The position numbers and the translations under genes were made by a program. DNA of 10,039 nt from Candidatus Bathyarchaeota archaeon (lineage in GTDB: Archaea > Thermoproteota > Bathyarchaeia > Bathyarchaeales > B26-1): NCBI GenBank assembly GCA_003662645.1, contig QMYL01000017.1:1-10039 (forward strand). The letters run 5' to 3'. Below the pieces are notes generated by a model. The model was not told the origin of the DNA, did no database searches, and was given only the letters and a program-made list of their open reading frames with translations. The number at the start of each line of letters is the position of its first letter. The stretch's first letter is position 1. Of the stretch, positions 1 to 10,039 are shown piece after piece.

Positions 1-1906
1 ACTTGGACATCTTCTCGCCCTCGATGGTCAACATGCCGTTGACACCGATACCCTTAGGCCAGAACCTCCTCGGAAATATTGCGACGTGCTGGAAGAGGAA
101 GAAGGACAGATGGTTCGGCACCAACTCCTTAGCAGAGACCCTCAAATCGACCGGATACCAATACCTAAACTCATCCCTCATCTCCCTCAAGATGGATGGA
201 TCAAGCCCAGAACTCTTAACCGCAGCCTCCAAATCCCCATCCTCAAGGAATATGTAATCGAAGACCTCATCCGTCAACTGTTCAGGCTTAACCCCATACT
301 TACGGATATGCTTAACAATCGTGTAGAAAGCCATATAGATTGTTGAATCACTCAAGGTCTCAACTATCCAGTCGGGGCTCCAGGGGAGGGGTGTTCCCAA
401 ACCGGTCCTACGGGCGCAGGCCCAATCATGGAGCCAATCTATCTTATCGTGGAAGTATTGCCTAGCAGACTCGGGGTAGATGTTCGCGTTATCGACAGCC
501 TCATGAGCCAGCCTCTTCCATTCTGGATCGGAGTACTTCAGGAACCATTGATCCGAGAGTATCTTAACTATGCATTTAGTTGTACATCTACACACAACCC
601 TCCTCGGGAGGTCGTACATCGAGTCGGCGACGCCCTCCCTCTTGAAGTCCTCGATCAACTCAGCCTTAACATCCCTAACCAGCCTACCAGCGTACTTACC
701 ACATATGGGCTTCAAAACCCCGGTGTGGAACTCCTTCTTGTAGATTATCGATGTGGCCTCATCAACCTTGGGATCAAACTGATCCCTAACACCCATCTCC
801 TCAACGATCTCAACAGCTGGATAGTCACCATAACCCTCAACACTGATCAACGAAATGGGCTTAATAGAATTGACGACCTCAACATCTATCCCAAACTTCC
901 CTAAGACCTCCGGCTTCTCAACCAGATCCCTAATCGCTATCCAATCGGCGGGGGCGTGGGCTGGAACGCTGTAGACAACCCCAGTGGCGGAGTCCGGGTC
1001 AACAAACCACCCGGGAAGTATCGGCAACATCCTGCCAGTAATCGGATCCTTAAAGTATTTACCTATCAGCTCAGAACCCTTAAACTCCCTCAGAATATCA
1101 ACCTTCTTCAACTGTTGGGAGAGCTTATAAGCGGCCTCCTTACTGATTATCCACCTCTCACCATCAACCCTAGCCTCAACATAGGTAGCATCAGGGTTTA
1201 TGAACATATTAGTGACCCCATAGATCGTCTCAGGCCTGAATGTAGCAGCTGGGAGATAGGCGTCGCCGAACTGAAACTTCAGTAGAGTATACTCCTCAGG
1301 TGAGACGCCCTCACCCTCCAACCTATCGTGGTCACCAGTAGGGCTCTCACACTTAGGGCACCAAACAACGGGATGGGTCCCCCTAACAACGTAACCCTTC
1401 CTACGCAGGGTCCTATACTGCCACTCTATAAAACGGCTGAAGGTGGGCTCAAGATATGTTGTGTGGAACTCCCTCCTCCAATCGACTGAGTAGCCTATCC
1501 TCCTAACGACCTCCCTACCCTCACGGGTATAATAGTTGGCCATGTAAACCGGATCGACGAACTTCTCCAACTCCTCATCAGGGACGCCATCGATCTCCCT
1601 CAAACCCCTTATAACATCCTCATCACCCATCTTAACCCTCAAGGCAGCCCCAACTATGGGTTCACCAGTCCAATGCCAAGCCCACGGGAAGAGCGTATTG
1701 TAACCGCGCATCCTCATGAACCTAGCGTAAACATCAACCCTAGTAGCCGTGAAGCCGTGTCCAATATGGAGAGGCCCATTCATGTAGGGAAATGGGAAGG
1801 TGACGAAGCACTTATCCCTACTCGGGTCTGGATCAGCCTCGAATATCCTAGCTTCCTCCCACCTTCTACGCCACTTCTCCTCTATACCCCTCCAATCCAG
1901 ACTCAT
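1..1906 (-). CDS. leuS: Leucyl-tRNA synthetase, archaeal type (partial, 3' end outside window)
   Basis: Class I cytosolic enzyme that attaches leucine to tRNA-Leu. I translated the minus strand from the ATG at 1906-1904 and got 635 codons with no stop up to the left edge. Seen: GPLHIGH (HIGH at residues 47-50), a WCPKC zinc-type pair at 183-186, the CP1 editing domain with TFRPETIYG (222-230) and GVVYSVPAHAPADW (309-322, with the conserved editing Asp at 321), a DQWFLKY block, and KMSK (632-635) at positions 2-13, where the window ends. Family enzymes are around 940-970 residues, so roughly a third lies outside, mainly the anticodon-binding and C-terminal domains. The start is supported by an AGGTGGT stretch upstream that overlaps the end of alaS. 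The gene begins 4 bases after the alaS stop, so cotranscription is likely. No in-frame TAG occurs in the part seen. Confidence 0.96.
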   Translation of the reverse strand, partial: MSLDWRGIEEKWRRRWEEARIFEADPDPSRDKCFVTFPFPYMNGPLHIGHGFTATRVDVYARFMRMRGYNTLFPWAWHWTGEPIVGAALRVKMGDEDVIRGLREIDGVPDEELEKFVDPVYMANYYTREGREVVRRIGYSVDWRREFHTTYLEPTFSRFIEWQYRTLRRKGYVVRGTHPVVWCPKCESPTGDHDRLEGEGVSPEEYTLLKFQFGDAYLPAATFRPETIYGVTNMFINPDATYVEARVDGERWIISKEAAYKLSQQLKKVDILREFKGSELIGKYFKDPITGRMLPILPGWFVDPDSATGVVYSVPAHAPADWIAIRDLVEKPEVLGKFGIDVEVVNSIKPISLISVEGYGDYPAVEIVEEMGVRDQFDPKVDEATSIIYKKEFHTGVLKPICGKYAGRLVRDVKAELIEDFKREGVADSMYDLPRRVVCRCTTKCIVKILSDQWFLKYSDPEWKRLAHEAVDNANIYPESARQYFHDKIDWLHDWACARRTGLGTPLPWSPDWIVETLSDSTIYMAFYTIVKHIRKYGVKPEQLTDEVFDYIFLEDGDLEAAVKSSGLDPSILREMRDEFRYWYPVDLRVSAKELVPNHLSFFLFQHVAIFPRRFWPKGIGVNGMLTIEGEKMSK

Positions 1907-1910
1907 ACTA

Positions 1911-4013
1911 TCAACCACCTAAAACATTCTTCAAGAAATCTCTAACCCTAACGAGGGCTTTATCAACATTCTCGACACGGCTCCCACCACCCTGGGCGAA
2001 GTTCGGCCTACCGCTCCCACCGCCACCAAGCTCGAGGGCAGCCTCCCTGGCGATGGCATCGGCCCTCACCCCACGTTCCATGGCTTCATCGCCAACCATA
2101 ACTATAACCCTACCACTCCTATTTATATGGAAGAGGACGGCGACAACTCTTGGATCGGACTTAACAAGCCTATCAGCAACCTTTATCAGCTGGTCAACCG
2201 GATCATCTGAGACTCTCATGACAAGCCTCAAACCGGAGATCTCCTCAGCCTCCCTAAGATACCTCTCAGCCATAAACCCAGCTATGAGATCGGTCAGCCT
2301 CTCCCTATCACGGCGCATCTCCCTCCACTCAGAGACCAGCCTCTCAGCAGCCCTATCAACCTTATCGAGCGGAACCCCAAGGGCCTCCGAGACCCTCATA
2401 AGCCTTGACTCGCCCTCATGTACAGCCCTCAAAGCTGGAAGCCCTGCGCTGAAGATTATCCTCTCAACGCCATCTTGGATCCTCTCGGTACGGAGTATCT
2501 TTATCAACCCCACCTCACCCGTAGTTCTGCAGTGGGTTCCACCGCAAGCCTCAACATCCCAATCGCCGCACTTGACAACCCTTATCTCCCTCCCAGGAAC
2601 GACGCCGCCCTGATAAAGGCGGAAGCCATACATCCTCTCAGCCCTCTCCCTGGGCATCCAGAAGGCTTCAACCTTAAGGTTCCTCATGACAGCCAGATTG
2701 GCCAGCTCCTCTATCCTTCTAACCTCCTCAACCGTCAGCCTCCTATAATGGGATATGTCCAGACGTGACCTATCGACGTCCTTCTGGGCTCCAGCTTGCC
2801 AAACATGTTCACCAAGAACCCTCCTAGCAGCCCCCATAACCAAGTGTGTAGCTGTGTGGTGTCTCATCAAGCTCAGCCTCCTCTCCCAGTCGATCTCTCC
2901 ATGAACCGAGGAACCCTCACCCGGCAACGGCCCATCCAGATAGTGAACTATAACCCTACCAAACTTTTGAACATCTACAACCCTGGAACGTTTTCCATCG
3001 AACTCGATATAACCGTGATCAGCGGGCTGTCCACCGCCCTCAGGGTAGAACGCGGTTCTATCGAGGACAACTCCCCCGTCACCCAGAACTCTCAGAACCT
3101 TAGCATCGAAGCTTGAAAGGTAGACATCCTTATAGTAGAGCGGCTCGGTTTCAGGTAGACCGGTGGTTTCCTCTGTCTCCCCCGGAGCCGCCTGCACGGG
3201 TTTGGGAGCCTTTATATGCCTCTCCGCAACGAGGCTGTAGAAGTTCTCCGGAACATTAACCTTCACGCCTTCGCCCTCAGCCATTCTACGAACTATCTCG
3301 GGCGTCAAACCATGGGAGTCGTATAACTCTATCAAGGTGCTGGTGGGAATCTCTTCATAACCCTTAGCCCTCAGCTCCCTTGAGATCCTCCTAACCAAGT
3401 TGTAGCCTCTACTTATCGTCTGCTTAAACTTTCCCCCCTCAACCGAGAGTATCTCAAGTATCTCATCCCTCATCTCCTTAAGGAGTGGGAAGTCCCTAGA
3501 CCAGTAGGATATCTGCATGTCGATTATATCGGGCAGGGAATCCTCGATGGACAACGCGTCTAAGAGGCGGTAGGTCCTCCTGACCATAAGCCTGGTTATG
3601 TAACCCTCACGGACATTAGACGGTATAACCCCTTCGGCGAGCAGGAAGGCCAGACACTTCGTGTGGTCGGTAACGGCGAAGACGTTTATGATCGGGTTCA
3701 ACTCCTCCATCAAATCTTCGGGGGCCATGCCAACCCTACTGGCGATGTACCTCCACCTGCTCTCCCTCTCAACACCCCTCTCCTTAGAGATGTTTATCAA
3801 ACCCGATAACTTAGAAACCTCGGCGAGGAGCTTATAGTCCGGCTCCGAGACCCCAGCTATGTCCATAATCTTCTTGAGTATATCCCCATAAACGGCGTGG
3901 AAGCAGCTCACCGAACCCTGAGAAAGCCACGTATACCTCTCGATCCCATAACCGGTATCAACGGTCCTTATCGGCAACTCCACGAACTGGTCGTCGATAA
4001 CCTTATACTTCAT
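1911..4013 (-). CDS. alaS: Alanyl-tRNA synthetase, C-terminal part downstream of the in-frame TAG
   Basis: Continuation of the class II alanyl-tRNA synthetase begun at 4682. The open frame from the first available ATG (4013) gives 700 residues, but AlaRS similarity runs in the same frame up to 4094, directly after the TAG. Those 27 codons include the conserved WSGGGNAGP glycine-rich motif, so an independent start at 4013 would drop part of the catalytic core. In full-length numbering I see motif 3 (GYGIERYTW, about 244-252), the beta-barrel signature FYPEGGGQP, the editing-domain metal ligands HxxxH (609/613) and CGGTH (713/717), and a glycine-rich C-Ala motif GGGGSGRPNFAQGGG near the end. 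All key residues are intact, which argues against long-standing decay. It ends in TGA at 1911-1913, 4 bases before leuS. An alternative reading is a split two-subunit AlaRS as in Nanoarchaeum equitans, but the missing core segment makes that less attractive. Confidence 0.93.
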   Translation of the reverse strand: MKYKVIDDQFVELPIRTVDTGYGIERYTWLSQGSVSCFHAVYGDILKKIMDIAGVSEPDYKLLAEVSKLSGLINISKERGVERESRWRYIASRVGMAPEDLMEELNPIINVFAVTDHTKCLAFLLAEGVIPSNVREGYITRLMVRRTYRLLDALSIEDSLPDIIDMQISYWSRDFPLLKEMRDEILEILSVEGGKFKQTISRGYNLVRRISRELRAKGYEEIPTSTLIELYDSHGLTPEIVRRMAEGEGVKVNVPENFYSLVAERHIKAPKPVQAAPGETEETTGLPETEPLYYKDVYLSSFDAKVLRVLGDGGVVLDRTAFYPEGGGQPADHGYIEFDGKRSRVVDVQKFGRVIVHYLDGPLPGEGSSVHGEIDWERRLSLMRHHTATHLVMGAARRVLGEHVWQAGAQKDVDRSRLDISHYRRLTVEEVRRIEELANLAVMRNLKVEAFWMPRERAERMYGFRLYQGGVVPGREIRVVKCGDWDVEACGGTHCRTTGEVGLIKILRTERIQDGVERIIFSAGLPALRAVHEGESRLMRVSEALGVPLDKVDRAAERLVSEWREMRRDRERLTDLIAGFMAERYLREAEEISGLRLVMRVSDDPVDQLIKVADRLVKSDPRVVAVLFHINRSGRVIVMVGDEAMERGVRADAIAREAALELGGGGSGRPNFAQGGGSRVENVDKALVRVRDFLKNVLGG

Positions 4014-4094
4014 GAAGACTAGGGTTGCAACCTCTAAACCGCGGACGACGCTCTCAACATCAGGTCCAGCGTTACCTCCACCAGACCAGACACC

Positions 4095-4097
4095 CTA
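4095..4097 (-). other. In-frame TAG (amber) codon 196 within alaS
   Basis: The codons read EEIIYK, TAG, GVWSGGGNAGP in one uninterrupted frame with no shift. Archaeal AlaRS sequences as I remember them have an acidic residue, usually Glu, after the (I/T)YK segment. A single G-to-T change in GAG would therefore explain the TAG. Possible causes are a sequencing or assembly error, a fresh nonsense mutation, suppression or readthrough, or pyrrolysine-type decoding. The window has no pyl genes and no obvious readthrough structure that I can identify. Confidence 0.9.
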
Positions 4098-4682
4098 CTT
4101 ATAGATTATCTCCTCAGATCTAACACACAGCTCCTCAGTCAAGAACTCATGGTGGTATCGAACCGTCTCATCCTTCCAGTAGACTTCCTTATCCGGGTAG
4201 TTGAAGGCGTGGTGGCCGCCCATCTCGAATATGGTAAGGTGTCTACCGAAGGTCGGCCCAACGTTATCTACATCCAGAAACCTCACGCAGGGTTGACTTA
4301 TCACTAAGGGATTTGCGGGCGGCGGTATAATGCCCTCAGTAACGTAAGGCTGAAAATCGATTATACTTGCATTCGTGAAGTATAGGTCGTCACGCCACCT
4401 AGCAACTATAGGGTAGGGTTTTATACGTTCATGTCCATTCCTCTCGAAGAATGAGAGGAATGCCTCCCTCATCTCCCTTAAGGTGTAGGCCCTACTGGTT
4501 GGAGGGTCACCTATAAACGTATACTCAGCGCAACCCTCACGCGTAGCCTCGCCGCAGAGCTCCTGATCAGGGTTCTGTGTCCAGAAGTACTCCCCACACT
4601 TGGGACAACGCTTCCTAACATAACCATACTCATCGAAGAATGGTATGTGATACTCATCCTCGCTGAAGGTTCTCAACGGCAT
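4095..4682 (-). CDS. alaS: Alanyl-tRNA synthetase, N-terminal part ending at an in-frame TAG
   Basis: First 195 residues of an archaeal AlaRS, which charges tRNA-Ala with alanine and edits mischarged Ser and Gly. Seen: the archaeal N-terminal extension with a Cys cluster (CPKC at 26-29, C43, C51), the start of the class II fold ([14 protein letters not shown], about 94-107), and motif 2 (QPCVRF 130-135, then [15 protein letters not shown] 146-160). Motif 3 and the glycine-rich core lie beyond the stop, so this piece alone cannot be an active synthetase. With the downstream part it spans 1911-4682, 923 codons, a normal archaeal AlaRS length. The start ATG at 4682 lies about 30 bases downstream of a TATA-like element, which suggests a leaderless or nearly leaderless transcript from its own promoter. 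It sits directly downstream of the L12 gene, an arrangement I recall from crenarchaeal genomes. Confidence 0.93.
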
Positions 4683-6838: not shown

Positions 6839-7333
6839 ATGTTGTTGGGAGTTATGGCTGATACCCACGACAGGTTGCCATTCATAGATAGGGCGGTGGA
6901 GATAATGAACCGGGAGAGGGTGGAGTTGGTGGTGCACGCCGGGGACTACATAGCTCCCTTCACAGTGAAACACTTCAAACCCTTAAATGTGAAGCTCTTA
7001 GGGGTCTTCGGCAACAACGACGCAGAACTATCCACGCTGAGCAGGAAATTCGCCGATCTGGGTTTTGATGTGAAGGGGAGGTTCAGGGAGCTCAAGCTTG
7101 ATGGCTTAAGGATCGCCGTACTCCACGGCGACGAGGAGGAGCTACTGGAGTCGCTGGTCAGATGCGGAGGCTACAATGTGGTCATCCATGGACACACCCA
7201 TAAGGCAGAGGTCCGTAAGGTCGGCGGGACTTTGGTTCTAAACCCCGGTGAGGTCTGCGGATATCTGAGCGGCGAGCCCACAGTAGCAAAGCTGGATACA
7301 AAGACGCTCAAAGTTGAGGTTATGCGCATCTAG
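6839..7333 (+). CDS. MJ0936/YfcE-family metallophosphoesterase
   Basis: Small cytosolic calcineurin-like phosphoesterase of 164 residues, the usual length for the family whose archaeal prototype is Methanocaldococcus MJ0936. All metal-ligand motifs are visible: DTH (8-10), GD (35-36), GNND (58-61), LHGD (95-98) and GHTH (118-121), followed by the LNPGEVCGYLSG segment typical of this subfamily. Members bind two divalent metals (Mn or Ni) and hydrolyse phosphodiesters in vitro. The physiological substrate is generally not known and cannot be read here. The gene ends in TAG at 7331-7333, at the same place where the family normally ends, so this TAG is a genuine stop. It lies just right of the transposase relic, which may have displaced or supplied its upstream region. 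Confidence 0.95.
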   Translation: MLLGVMADTHDRLPFIDRAVEIMNRERVELVVHAGDYIAPFTVKHFKPLNVKLLGVFGNNDAELSTLSRKFADLGFDVKGRFRELKLDGLRIAVLHGDEEELLESLVRCGGYNVVIHGHTHKAEVRKVGGTLVLNPGEVCGYLSGEPTVAKLDTKTLKVEVMRI

Positions 7334-7341
7334 CATCCAGT

Positions 7342-7360
7342 ATCCCCCTCTTTATTTTCT
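7342..7360 (+). terminator. Pyrimidine/T-rich tract after the phosphoesterase gene
   Basis: The stretch ATCCCCCTCTTTATTTTCT begins 9 bases after the stop. T-rich tracts without a hairpin commonly end transcripts in archaea, and a separate promoter follows at 7397. Evidence is compositional only. Confidence 0.35.
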
Positions 7361-7396
7361 CCACTACCCAGACCCAAATTCGGGGAAATGGAGAAG

Positions 7397-7404
7397 CTTT
7401 AAAT
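7397..7404 (+). promoter_or_regulatory. TATA box of the six-helix membrane protein gene
   Basis: CTTTAAAT preceded by purine-rich GGAGAAG (a BRE-like context), centred 30 bases upstream of the ATG at 7431. The spacing predicts a leaderless transcript that begins at or near that ATG. This supports choosing 7431 over the upstream in-frame ATG at 7314. Confidence 0.6.
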
Positions 7405-7430
7405 CATCTGAAACCAATAGTTGGAAGGCA

Positions 7431-8189
7431 ATGTCTAGTATCCTCACGGCTCTCGGAAGGAAGATGCTGGGTTTAGCCCTAATATTCAACTCCCTAATGA
7501 GTCTGCTCTCAACCGTAAATATACTGCTCGGTTTCTACTCATCCATGCCGTGGTGGAAACCATACGCACCCTACATAATCGATGGTTCAGTATTCTGGCT
7601 CGTGATCCCAACCTCGCTCTTGAATATAATCCCGGCCAGAAGCGTTGGCGAGGTTAAGATACGGAGGGTTATATTCCACCACTACGTATACGGCTTCTTA
7701 ACGGTTCTTAGTTCAACCTTCGCGGTCTCCCTATTCGCACCGCTTCCGCTGATAAGTCTATTCCTTCCACCGCTATATGAAAGCGGGATAAACTTGAACA
7801 ACCTGACGTTTTACATCTGCTCATTCTTTGCCTATGGAGGTTTAGTCTTGATACTTGACGACCTATACGACTTCTCTTCAAGGATACCCTGCATATCAAG
7901 GCTGCTGAGGTTGAGGGTCGGTCGATCGAGTAGGCTCCTCAGGATGATCCACCTATCGTGTAGCATACTGACGATCTACATAGCCCTCGGCGTAGGGTTG
8001 TGGCTTATAAGAAATTACAACTGGATAGGAAGACATACCTTCGTATGCGTATCCCACATAGTCTTCATGTCCAGCCTATTAATAACTGGTCTCTTCGGTT
8101 TCAAGGTGAGCATAAATAACTCGAGAGGGAGAATGGATAAGAACGAAGATTCGGAAAAGGGTAAATATATAAATAACACATCAACATGA
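7431..8189 (+). CDS. Uncharacterised six-helix membrane protein with His/Asp-rich helices
   Basis: I do not recognise this family. The frame is also open back to an ATG at 7314. I start it at 7431 (252 residues) because the upstream ATG lies inside the phosphoesterase gene, the intervening codons look non-coding, and a TATA box sits 30 bases before 7431. Hydrophobic segments fall at about 12-34, 49-68, 80-113, 124-143, 172-193 and 204-225, followed by a charged tail. Polar residues in or beside the helices are notable: HHYVYG (His 83-84), ILDDLYD (Asp 143, 144, 147), MIH (His 174) and RHTFVCVSH (His 202, 209). Such residues could bind metal or haem, but no known signature is complete. The next gene on the same strand starts 25 bases after the stop and is also a membrane protein, so a shared role is plausible. 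Confidence 0.82.
   Translation: MSSILTALGRKMLGLALIFNSLMSLLSTVNILLGFYSSMPWWKPYAPYIIDGSVFWLVIPTSLLNIIPARSVGEVKIRRVIFHHYVYGFLTVLSSTFAVSLFAPLPLISLFLPPLYESGINLNNLTFYICSFFAYGGLVLILDDLYDFSSRIPCISRLLRLRVGRSSRLLRMIHLSCSILTIYIALGVGLWLIRNYNWIGRHTFVCVSHIVFMSSLLITGLFGFKVSINNSRGRMDKNEDSEKGKYINNTST
8166..8174 (+). promoter_or_regulatory. TATA box inside the end of the preceding gene
   Basis: TATATAAAT lies about 45 bases before the ATG at 8215 and within the last codons of the upstream membrane-protein gene. Initiation about 27 bases downstream would give a leader of about 20 bases that includes AGGAG (8201-8205), a Shine-Dalgarno site 9 bases from the ATG. The second membrane-protein gene can therefore probably be expressed separately as well as by readthrough. 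Confidence 0.5.
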
Positions 8190-8214: not shown

Positions 8215-10039
8215 ATGAGAAAGATAGTTGCATTCTTACTCTGCTCAACAATAGCCTTCACCACCAGCTTCTCGGCCGTACCGGAAAGCTTCAACCTCAT
8301 AATAGGGTGGCTCTCCCCAGTCTTCGGGACGTCACTGAGGGTTCTCTTCTCCATGCTCTTCATACTTCTAGGAGACCCCCTCAAATACACGGCCATAGCC
8401 GTCTTGTGGGCCACCGTGGGCCTCCTCTGCGGTTTAATAGTTAGGAGGAAGATCGGGAGTATACTCTCAGCCTGGCTCGTCTACGGCTCGATGTTCCTCG
8501 TCTTGGGGGTCGCAGCCTTGAGGCTCTTCGAGGTTGCGGTGGAGGTTGGTATAACTGAGAGGCCGGAGAATATGCTGGCACTCTTACCCCCGTTCCCACC
8601 AGGCTTCTCCCTACCAACATTACTCGGCGCGCCGATAATAGGAGAGGTCTACGCGGGGCTACAGGGGTTACCGCCCACATCGTTATCGTCACCCATGGGT
8701 ATAATCTCTCCAATAATCTCAGTTATCCTCCTGAACGCCCTGAAGAACATACTAATACTCTTCCTCACATCCCTCGTCGGCTGTGAGTTTGGTAAACTGG
8801 TTGAGGAGTCCCTCTGGAAACTGATCTCTGAGAAGGTGTTCAGGAGGGAAAAGGAAGCCCCTGAGGAAACGAAACCAGAGACAGAAGCCCCTGTGAAGAT
8901 GTTCAAGGTTGGGTTCCGCGTATCCGGTAGGGTGTGTAGGGCCTTATTGCTCTCATCGTTGATGATCATCATCTCCACGCCAGCTCTCTCCTCAATAATC
9001 CAAGCCGCCTTCGGCCAAGACGCATACTATTACGCTGAGGGCATATTCTTCCTCGCGACGCCTGATGGGACCATCTCACTCGCCTCAGCCTTCGTTGACT
9101 CAGAGATATCGATACCCGGTGTGGACCTCTCCTCGCCGGACTTAGAGGGCGCCTTAATGGGAGTCTTGATATCGCAAGACACCAGGGCTGACGCTCTACC
9201 TCCAATCCTGAGCTCCCCGACGATATTAAGTAGTATGTTGGGCGGTGTATTGCCTTCCGGTCTCCCACCGGAGCTTATGGGGAACCTGACTAGGTATTAC
9301 GAGATAGTTCCCCGTACAGTCTTCATAATAGTCTATAGCGGGGTGAGCGGGGATGAGGCCTCTAGGAGAGCTGAATCCGTCGCCTCTATGTTCTCCTCGG
9401 CCTTCCACGTATCGCTTTCATACCTCGCATCGACCACGCAGAGCGGAGAGCTGGACGGGACAACTATAGACCTGACCTTCGTGGTCTACCAGTCGGCGGC
9501 CTCGCTGAGCGATGTCGCCCCCTACATAGTTGACTTAATGCCTGTTGAGAGGCTTGGTATAGCCTCTTTCATAACTGAAGCCTATGAGGCGGGGATATTC
9601 ACCCCGGGTTCAACGAGTCTGTCCTCTAATGGGACTGTTATGGCTGTGGGCTTCTTCTCCTCGGCTATGGTTCTTCGCATGCTCGAGAACGTTAGCTACG
9701 TCGCCATGAGCATGGTTAGGTTGATACTGCCTGAGATGGAGACCCCCATACCCATGTTGGGCCTCTTCTCCTTCTGGATAAATAGGCTCCACTCATCATC
9801 CTTCGAGCACACACTGAACATAACGAAGCTCTTGAACATCACTAAGCCGATAGAGTTCTCACCCGAGGCGGTGGTCTCCGTCATATCGATGGTCGCCCCA
9901 AACGCCACGATAGAGGAGGGTGAGGTTGTATCCCAAACCCCCATCGTGTCTCTCATACTCTCCGCCAACCTGACCGAGCCCGATTTACAGCCGATAAGGG
10001 AGATAATTGAGAGCTTGAACGAGACTATATCTCTCAACC
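8215..10039 (+). CDS. Large uncharacterised membrane protein with glycosylatable extracellular region (partial, 3' end outside window)
   Basis: I read 608 codons from the ATG at 8215 to the right edge with no stop, and I do not recognise the family. The first 20 residues are hydrophobic (signal peptide or anchor). Further helices lie at about 28-52, 57-76, 80-104, 160-189 and 241-264. Residues 110-160 form a Pro/Gly-rich loop (for example LLPPFPPGFSLP). Residues 191-240 are charged, with an EKEAPEETKPETEAP stretch, and should be cytoplasmic. From about 265 on the chain looks globular and probably exterior. All eight N-x-S/T sequons I found (Asn 357, 472, 492, 535, 541, 563, 585, 602) are in this part and none are before it, which fits archaeal N-glycosylation outside the cell. 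It could be an envelope, adhesion or transport-accessory protein; the sequence does not decide. Confidence 0.85.
   Translation, partial: MRKIVAFLLCSTIAFTTSFSAVPESFNLIIGWLSPVFGTSLRVLFSMLFILLGDPLKYTAIAVLWATVGLLCGLIVRRKIGSILSAWLVYGSMFLVLGVAALRLFEVAVEVGITERPENMLALLPPFPPGFSLPTLLGAPIIGEVYAGLQGLPPTSLSSPMGIISPIISVILLNALKNILILFLTSLVGCEFGKLVEESLWKLISEKVFRREKEAPEETKPETEAPVKMFKVGFRVSGRVCRALLLSSLMIIISTPALSSIIQAAFGQDAYYYAEGIFFLATPDGTISLASAFVDSEISIPGVDLSSPDLEGALMGVLISQDTRADALPPILSSPTILSSMLGGVLPSGLPPELMGNLTRYYEIVPRTVFIIVYSGVSGDEASRRAESVASMFSSAFHVSLSYLASTTQSGELDGTTIDLTFVVYQSAASLSDVAPYIVDLMPVERLGIASFITEAYEAGIFTPGSTSLSSNGTVMAVGFFSSAMVLRMLENVSYVAMSMVRLILPEMETPIPMLGLFSFWINRLHSSSFEHTLNITKLLNITKPIEFSPEAVVSVISMVAPNATIEEGEVVSQTPIVSLILSANLTEPDLQPIREIIESLNETISLN

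Follow-up and report, generated by a model that had tools for sequence, protein, structure and literature searches.

An in-frame amber codon at an invariant glutamate of a Bathyarchaeia alanyl-tRNA synthetase gene, probably a consensus error in a fragmented metagenome-assembled genome

The gene described here shares its length, domains and conserved alignment columns with the archaeal alanyl-tRNA synthetase (AlaRS; family model TIGR03683; solved structures 2zze, 3wqy and 2ztg), from which it differs by an internal TAG at an invariant glutamate. Isolated consensus errors occur in fragmented metagenome-assembled genomes (MAGs), and the present case would resemble them in that single stops of different types interrupt otherwise intact genes and are absent from a near-identical sequence. 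In-frame TAG codons are also a feature of genes in pyrrolysine-decoding archaea, which carry pylTSBCD, and archaea reading all TAG codons as pyrrolysine were reportedly described in 2025. Some members of the present class carry pyl genes, and such clusters are reported in the Bathyarchaeia for Ca. Bathyarchaeota JdFR-11 (PMC9723677). This likeness is offset by the nature of the gene, which does not encode a methylamine methyltransferase, and by a near-identical protein that has glutamate at the site. True decoding of a TAG within the core of such an essential enzyme would amount to an altered genetic code in an archaeal lineage not previously known for it, a reading that the tests reported here oppose. 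When a draft MAG shows a single in-frame stop, a quick check is offered by a near-identical sequence, by the use of that stop in the genome and by the other stop codons inside its genes.

The window, i.e. the whole stretch of 10,039 nucleotides that was analysed, is the entire contig C17 of a Bathyarchaeia MAG of 1,227,202 bases (1.23 Mb) in 231 contigs, with a completeness of 81.25% and a contamination of 2.12%. The alaS gene for an archaeal-type alanine--tRNA ligase lies at 1911..4682 on the minus strand and matches TIGR03683, TIGR00344, PF01411, PF07973 and PF02272. Read from 4682 to 1911, its frame counts 923 codons and holds, besides the terminal stop, a single internal one, the in-frame amber codon 196 (4095..4097, minus strand). 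Around this stop the minus strand reads ATC TAT AAG TAG GGT GTC TGG, with the TAG flanked by codons 195 and 197. The TIGR03683 profile is covered by two separate pieces, as residues 1-195 align to its positions 1-183 and the open reading frame from 4013 to its positions 222-901; together with the catalytic, editing and DHHA1 domains this places the gene among the archaeal AlaRS, the frame of which is here interrupted at codon 196. The original prediction of an in-frame TAG within one continuous 923-codon archaeal AlaRS frame is therefore confirmed by the sequence and by the profile matches on both pieces. Conserved protein sequence on either side of a single stop, in a frame of this length, is not due to chance. 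A frameshift instead of a stop was ruled out by the continuous frame and by a gapless alignment to the database protein P0001. The gene had also been noted as the only apparent copy in the window; in the search of the whole MAG (81.25% complete) one alaS and no second one was found. From 91 relatives 80 named loci were kept, most of them titled Candidatus Bathyarchaeota; the other AlaRS matches listed in relatives were mostly partial, many of them covering the editing and C-terminal part, and were taken as putative AlaX-type proteins or split pieces.

The conservation of the interrupted site was assessed with 109 other AlaRS loci, 106 of which show the GGGNAGP-type motif that marks it (L029, L107 and L108 lack the motif and were left out). 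A glutamate codon is present at the site in all 106, as GAG in 63 and as GAA in 43. An alignment of the window protein, these 106 loci and 120 listed database proteins, the latter two sets partly overlapping, comprised 227 sequences, and residue 196 is glutamate in 226/226 of the others, in line with the residue that had been expected from the sequence alone. The solved chain 2zze_A likewise has glutamate at the matching site. At the 197 columns conserved to at least 97% in this alignment, the window gene deviates at 196 alone, while among the 226 other sequences 124 show no deviation and 54 show one. One deviation is thus an ordinary number, and a stop is an unusual kind of deviation.

A near-identical intact counterpart is P0001, a protein of 921 residues from another assembly (ENA source), which is identical to the window AlaRS at 901/921 positions (98%) in a gapless alignment and has glutamate at 196 and glycine at 186. 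Since 20 of the 921 positions differ, the source of P0001 is a close relative rather than the same strain. At four of these 20 positions (186, 196, 500 and 501) the state of the window is absent from the other sequences, and positions 500 and 501 sit in a gapped linker. The remaining two lie close together: codon 186, at 4125..4127 on the minus strand as computed from the codon number, is TGT for cysteine, a residue found in 0/226 other sequences, in contrast to glycine in P0001 and in 220/226 others. This change is located ten residues upstream of the stop, and both changes fall within 31 nt. Residues 4-185, 187-195 and 197-266 are identical in the window and in P0001, and the next difference is at 267, so that the private changes at 186 and 196 stand alone within 263 residues. 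By the fewest possible changes, TGT and TAG may each be one G>T step away from a glycine and a glutamate codon, respectively. When the 195-residue piece upstream of the stop was used as query, 297 matches were obtained; among the 120 listed, the only one at 100% was P0241, which has a contig of 10,039 bases and no outside source and is thus the window itself, and the next match had 80% identity. The P0241 cluster has three member sequences, of which the representative alone was examined, so that an independent truncated copy is possible.

We consider it quite likely that the TAG stems from an incorrect base in the consensus sequence of this fragmented MAG and that the gene is otherwise an ordinary AlaRS; this explanation ranks as the most likely one, followed by a recent private nonsense mutation. 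A one-base change at the invariant glutamate codon would then lie in a short patch with another private change, likewise of this minimal type. The real alaS of the organism would be intact and the TAG would be a plain stop. The origin of the fault would be in sequencing or assembly, outside the cell. A consensus error is favoured by the invariance of the site, by the intact P0001, by the two private changes within 263 residues and by the presence of solid internal stops in the MAG but not in G001, a member of the same family. It is opposed by the adjacent leuS for leucine--tRNA ligase (2..1918, minus strand; NF008957, TIGR00395), which is truncated by the contig end and shows zero deviations at 243 conserved columns, meaning that errors are not dense along the contig. 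This gene is identical to the database protein P0121 at 616/634 positions (97%), and one of the 18 differing states (position 350) is unseen in 119 others. Because P0121 and P0001 are both encoded on a 38,614-base contig of the ENA source, the two homologues are probably neighbours there as they are in the window. A further point against an error is that frameshift-like junctions, which would also indicate faults, are not in excess in the MAG (4 vs 5 in G001).

Among 68,906 aligned residues of MAG genes on 61 of the 231 contigs we counted ten inner stops (5 TAG, 3 TGA and 2 TAA), four of which were judged solid by eye, namely two TAG and two TGA, one per gene. Besides the TAG in alaS these are a TAG in L164 (5608, plus strand; glutamate in G001, left flank 5/15 identical), a TGA in L222 (5432, minus strand; tryptophan in G001) and a TGA in L235 (4737, minus strand; isoleucine in G001, right flank 4/15 identical). 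The stops in L235 and L164 are weaker cases than that in the window, and the glutamate site of L164 was compared with G001 only. By eye, we take the three genes to be FAD-oxidoreductase-like (L164), metallo-beta-lactamase-like (L222) and radical-SAM-like (L235). Two stops in L226 and two in L125 were dropped by eye as their alignments resemble shadow frames, one in L126 as its left flank is 1/15 identical and one in L221 at 37% identity. Stops at the alignment edges (12 in the MAG, 17 in G001) were left uncounted. Among 75,092 aligned residues of G001 there were three inner stops, none of which was judged solid by eye on like grounds. Since the solid internal stops are two TAG and two TGA, the fault in the MAG is not amber-specific, and the several kinds of stop speak for errors or variants and against amber decoding. 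The position of both solid TAG codons at glutamate is the point on which a novel reading could draw, and it would equally result from single-base changes at common GAG codons.

Less probable, yet a possibility to be weighed, is a real nonsense mutation of very recent origin, carried by the sampled strain as a whole or by a minor fraction of its cells, with the gene dead there or an intact allele left unassembled. The TAG is private to the window contig among the matches listed and no decay is visible elsewhere in the gene, the four genes with one solid internal stop each in the sampled 45% of the MAG could be strain variants, and a second alaS could be missing from a MAG that is 81% complete. 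On the other hand, alaS is an essential gene, and two private changes of the same type within 31 nt fit a local patch of errors as well or better. Of the four options offered by the original prediction (error, very recent mutation, suppression and decoding as an amino acid), error or very recent private change is supported. Decoding is not, in view of TAG as a common stop, of the pyrrolysine genes that were not found, of the glutamate in the near-identical P0001 and of the TGA codons among the solid internal stops. A suppressor tRNA may lie outside the 19 tRNAs read from this incomplete MAG.

The use of TAG as a stop was determined in 61 of the 231 contigs of the MAG (551,626 bases, 45%) and compared with 60 stretches of G001 plus one locus (973,082 bases). 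The 200 homology-supported gene ends of the MAG comprise 72 TGA, 69 TAA and 59 TAG, those of G001 79 TGA, 74 TAA and 62 TAG. The TAG share in the MAG amounts to 29.5% of 200 (95% interval 24 to 36%). A motif-only count on frames of at least 200 aa (TAG 64, TGA 63, TAA 60) includes shadow frames and was replaced by this homology-supported count. One of the TAG-terminated genes is that for a yfcE-type phosphodiesterase in the window itself (6839..7333, plus strand; TIGR00040), residues 1-162 of 164 of which align to the G001 homologue; if continued, its frame soon meets stops. The proposed count of genes that end in TAG versus genes with an internal TAG therefore shows neither the depletion as a stop nor the enrichment inside genes that mark reassignment, with 59 of the 200 ends against two solid internal TAG, alongside two TGA.

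It is very unlikely that amber suppression or a partial reassignment operates here, by which an unseen tRNA would insert an amino acid, probably glutamate, at the TAG. Both solid internal TAG codons, in alaS and at L164 5608, lie where G001 has glutamate, and part of the tRNAs of the MAG is missing. None of the 19 tRNA hits read (17 plus the two intron-bearing Tyr GTA and Lys TTT) out of 20, a plainly incomplete set from which one partial hit was left out, has a CUA anticodon. The release factor aRF1 is also not over the cut-off in the MAG (best 45.3 bits vs a cut-off of 234.7). Because aRF1 is present in 9/11 genomes searched, including the family members G001 and G002, we read its absence as incompleteness of the MAG. 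Suppression is further opposed by the TAG ends of 59/200 homology-supported genes, by TGA being as frequent as TAG among the four interrupting stops and by the plain glutamate of P0001 at the site. Still less likely is an ambiguous reading of TAG throughout the lineage, in which many genes would end at this codon and an unseen suppressor tRNA would insert glutamate at some TAGs; its basis would be the two glutamate sites in G001, one of them invariant across AlaRS. None of the observations calls for suppression or an altered code.

The insertion of pyrrolysine at the TAG would be in keeping with the pyl genes of some Bathyarchaeia, i.e. JdFR-11 (PMC9723677) and genome G066 of another family. 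A high share of TAG stops is compatible with it, as pyrrolysine is reported together with frequent UAG stops in the Sifarchaeia (PMC9499178), and frequent TAG stops alone are accordingly no argument for its exclusion. The arguments against pyrrolysine are that its genes were not found and that P0001 has glutamate at the site. In contrast to pyrrolysine-decoding archaea, the MAG has none of PylS, PylD and PylB over the cut-off. In the proposed search for pyl genes, PylS and PylD each exceeded the curated cut-off in 0/41 genomes, including the MAG and both family members, while one control genome passed in either case; the best PylS score in the MAG (81% complete) was 28.4 bits vs a cut-off of 178.15, and PylB had no match in the MAG. 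Within the order, PylS was over the cut-off in 1/151 genomes drawn, G066. As the replacement of the invariant glutamate of a housekeeping enzyme by pyrrolysine would also be implausible, this explanation is the least probable of all. In G066 itself, the locus L260 encodes a PylS of 277 aa at 1390-2223 (276 bits, cut-off 178.15) that matches the C-terminal domain model, adjoined by a PylB at 2271-3377 (407 bits, cut-off 348.2), and no tRNA was detected by ARAGORN in this partly masked 3.7-kb locus.

The remainder of the window contains two plus-strand frames at 7314-8189 and 8215-10038 that resemble membrane proteins by eye; neither matches an NCBIfam or Pfam model at E 0.001, and the second runs off the contig. 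Between the gene for a protein with two PAS domains and yfcE, the segment 6060-6838 holds no recognised gene. Two frames tested in it match nothing in Pfam at E values up to 1, and the segment could be a gene remnant.
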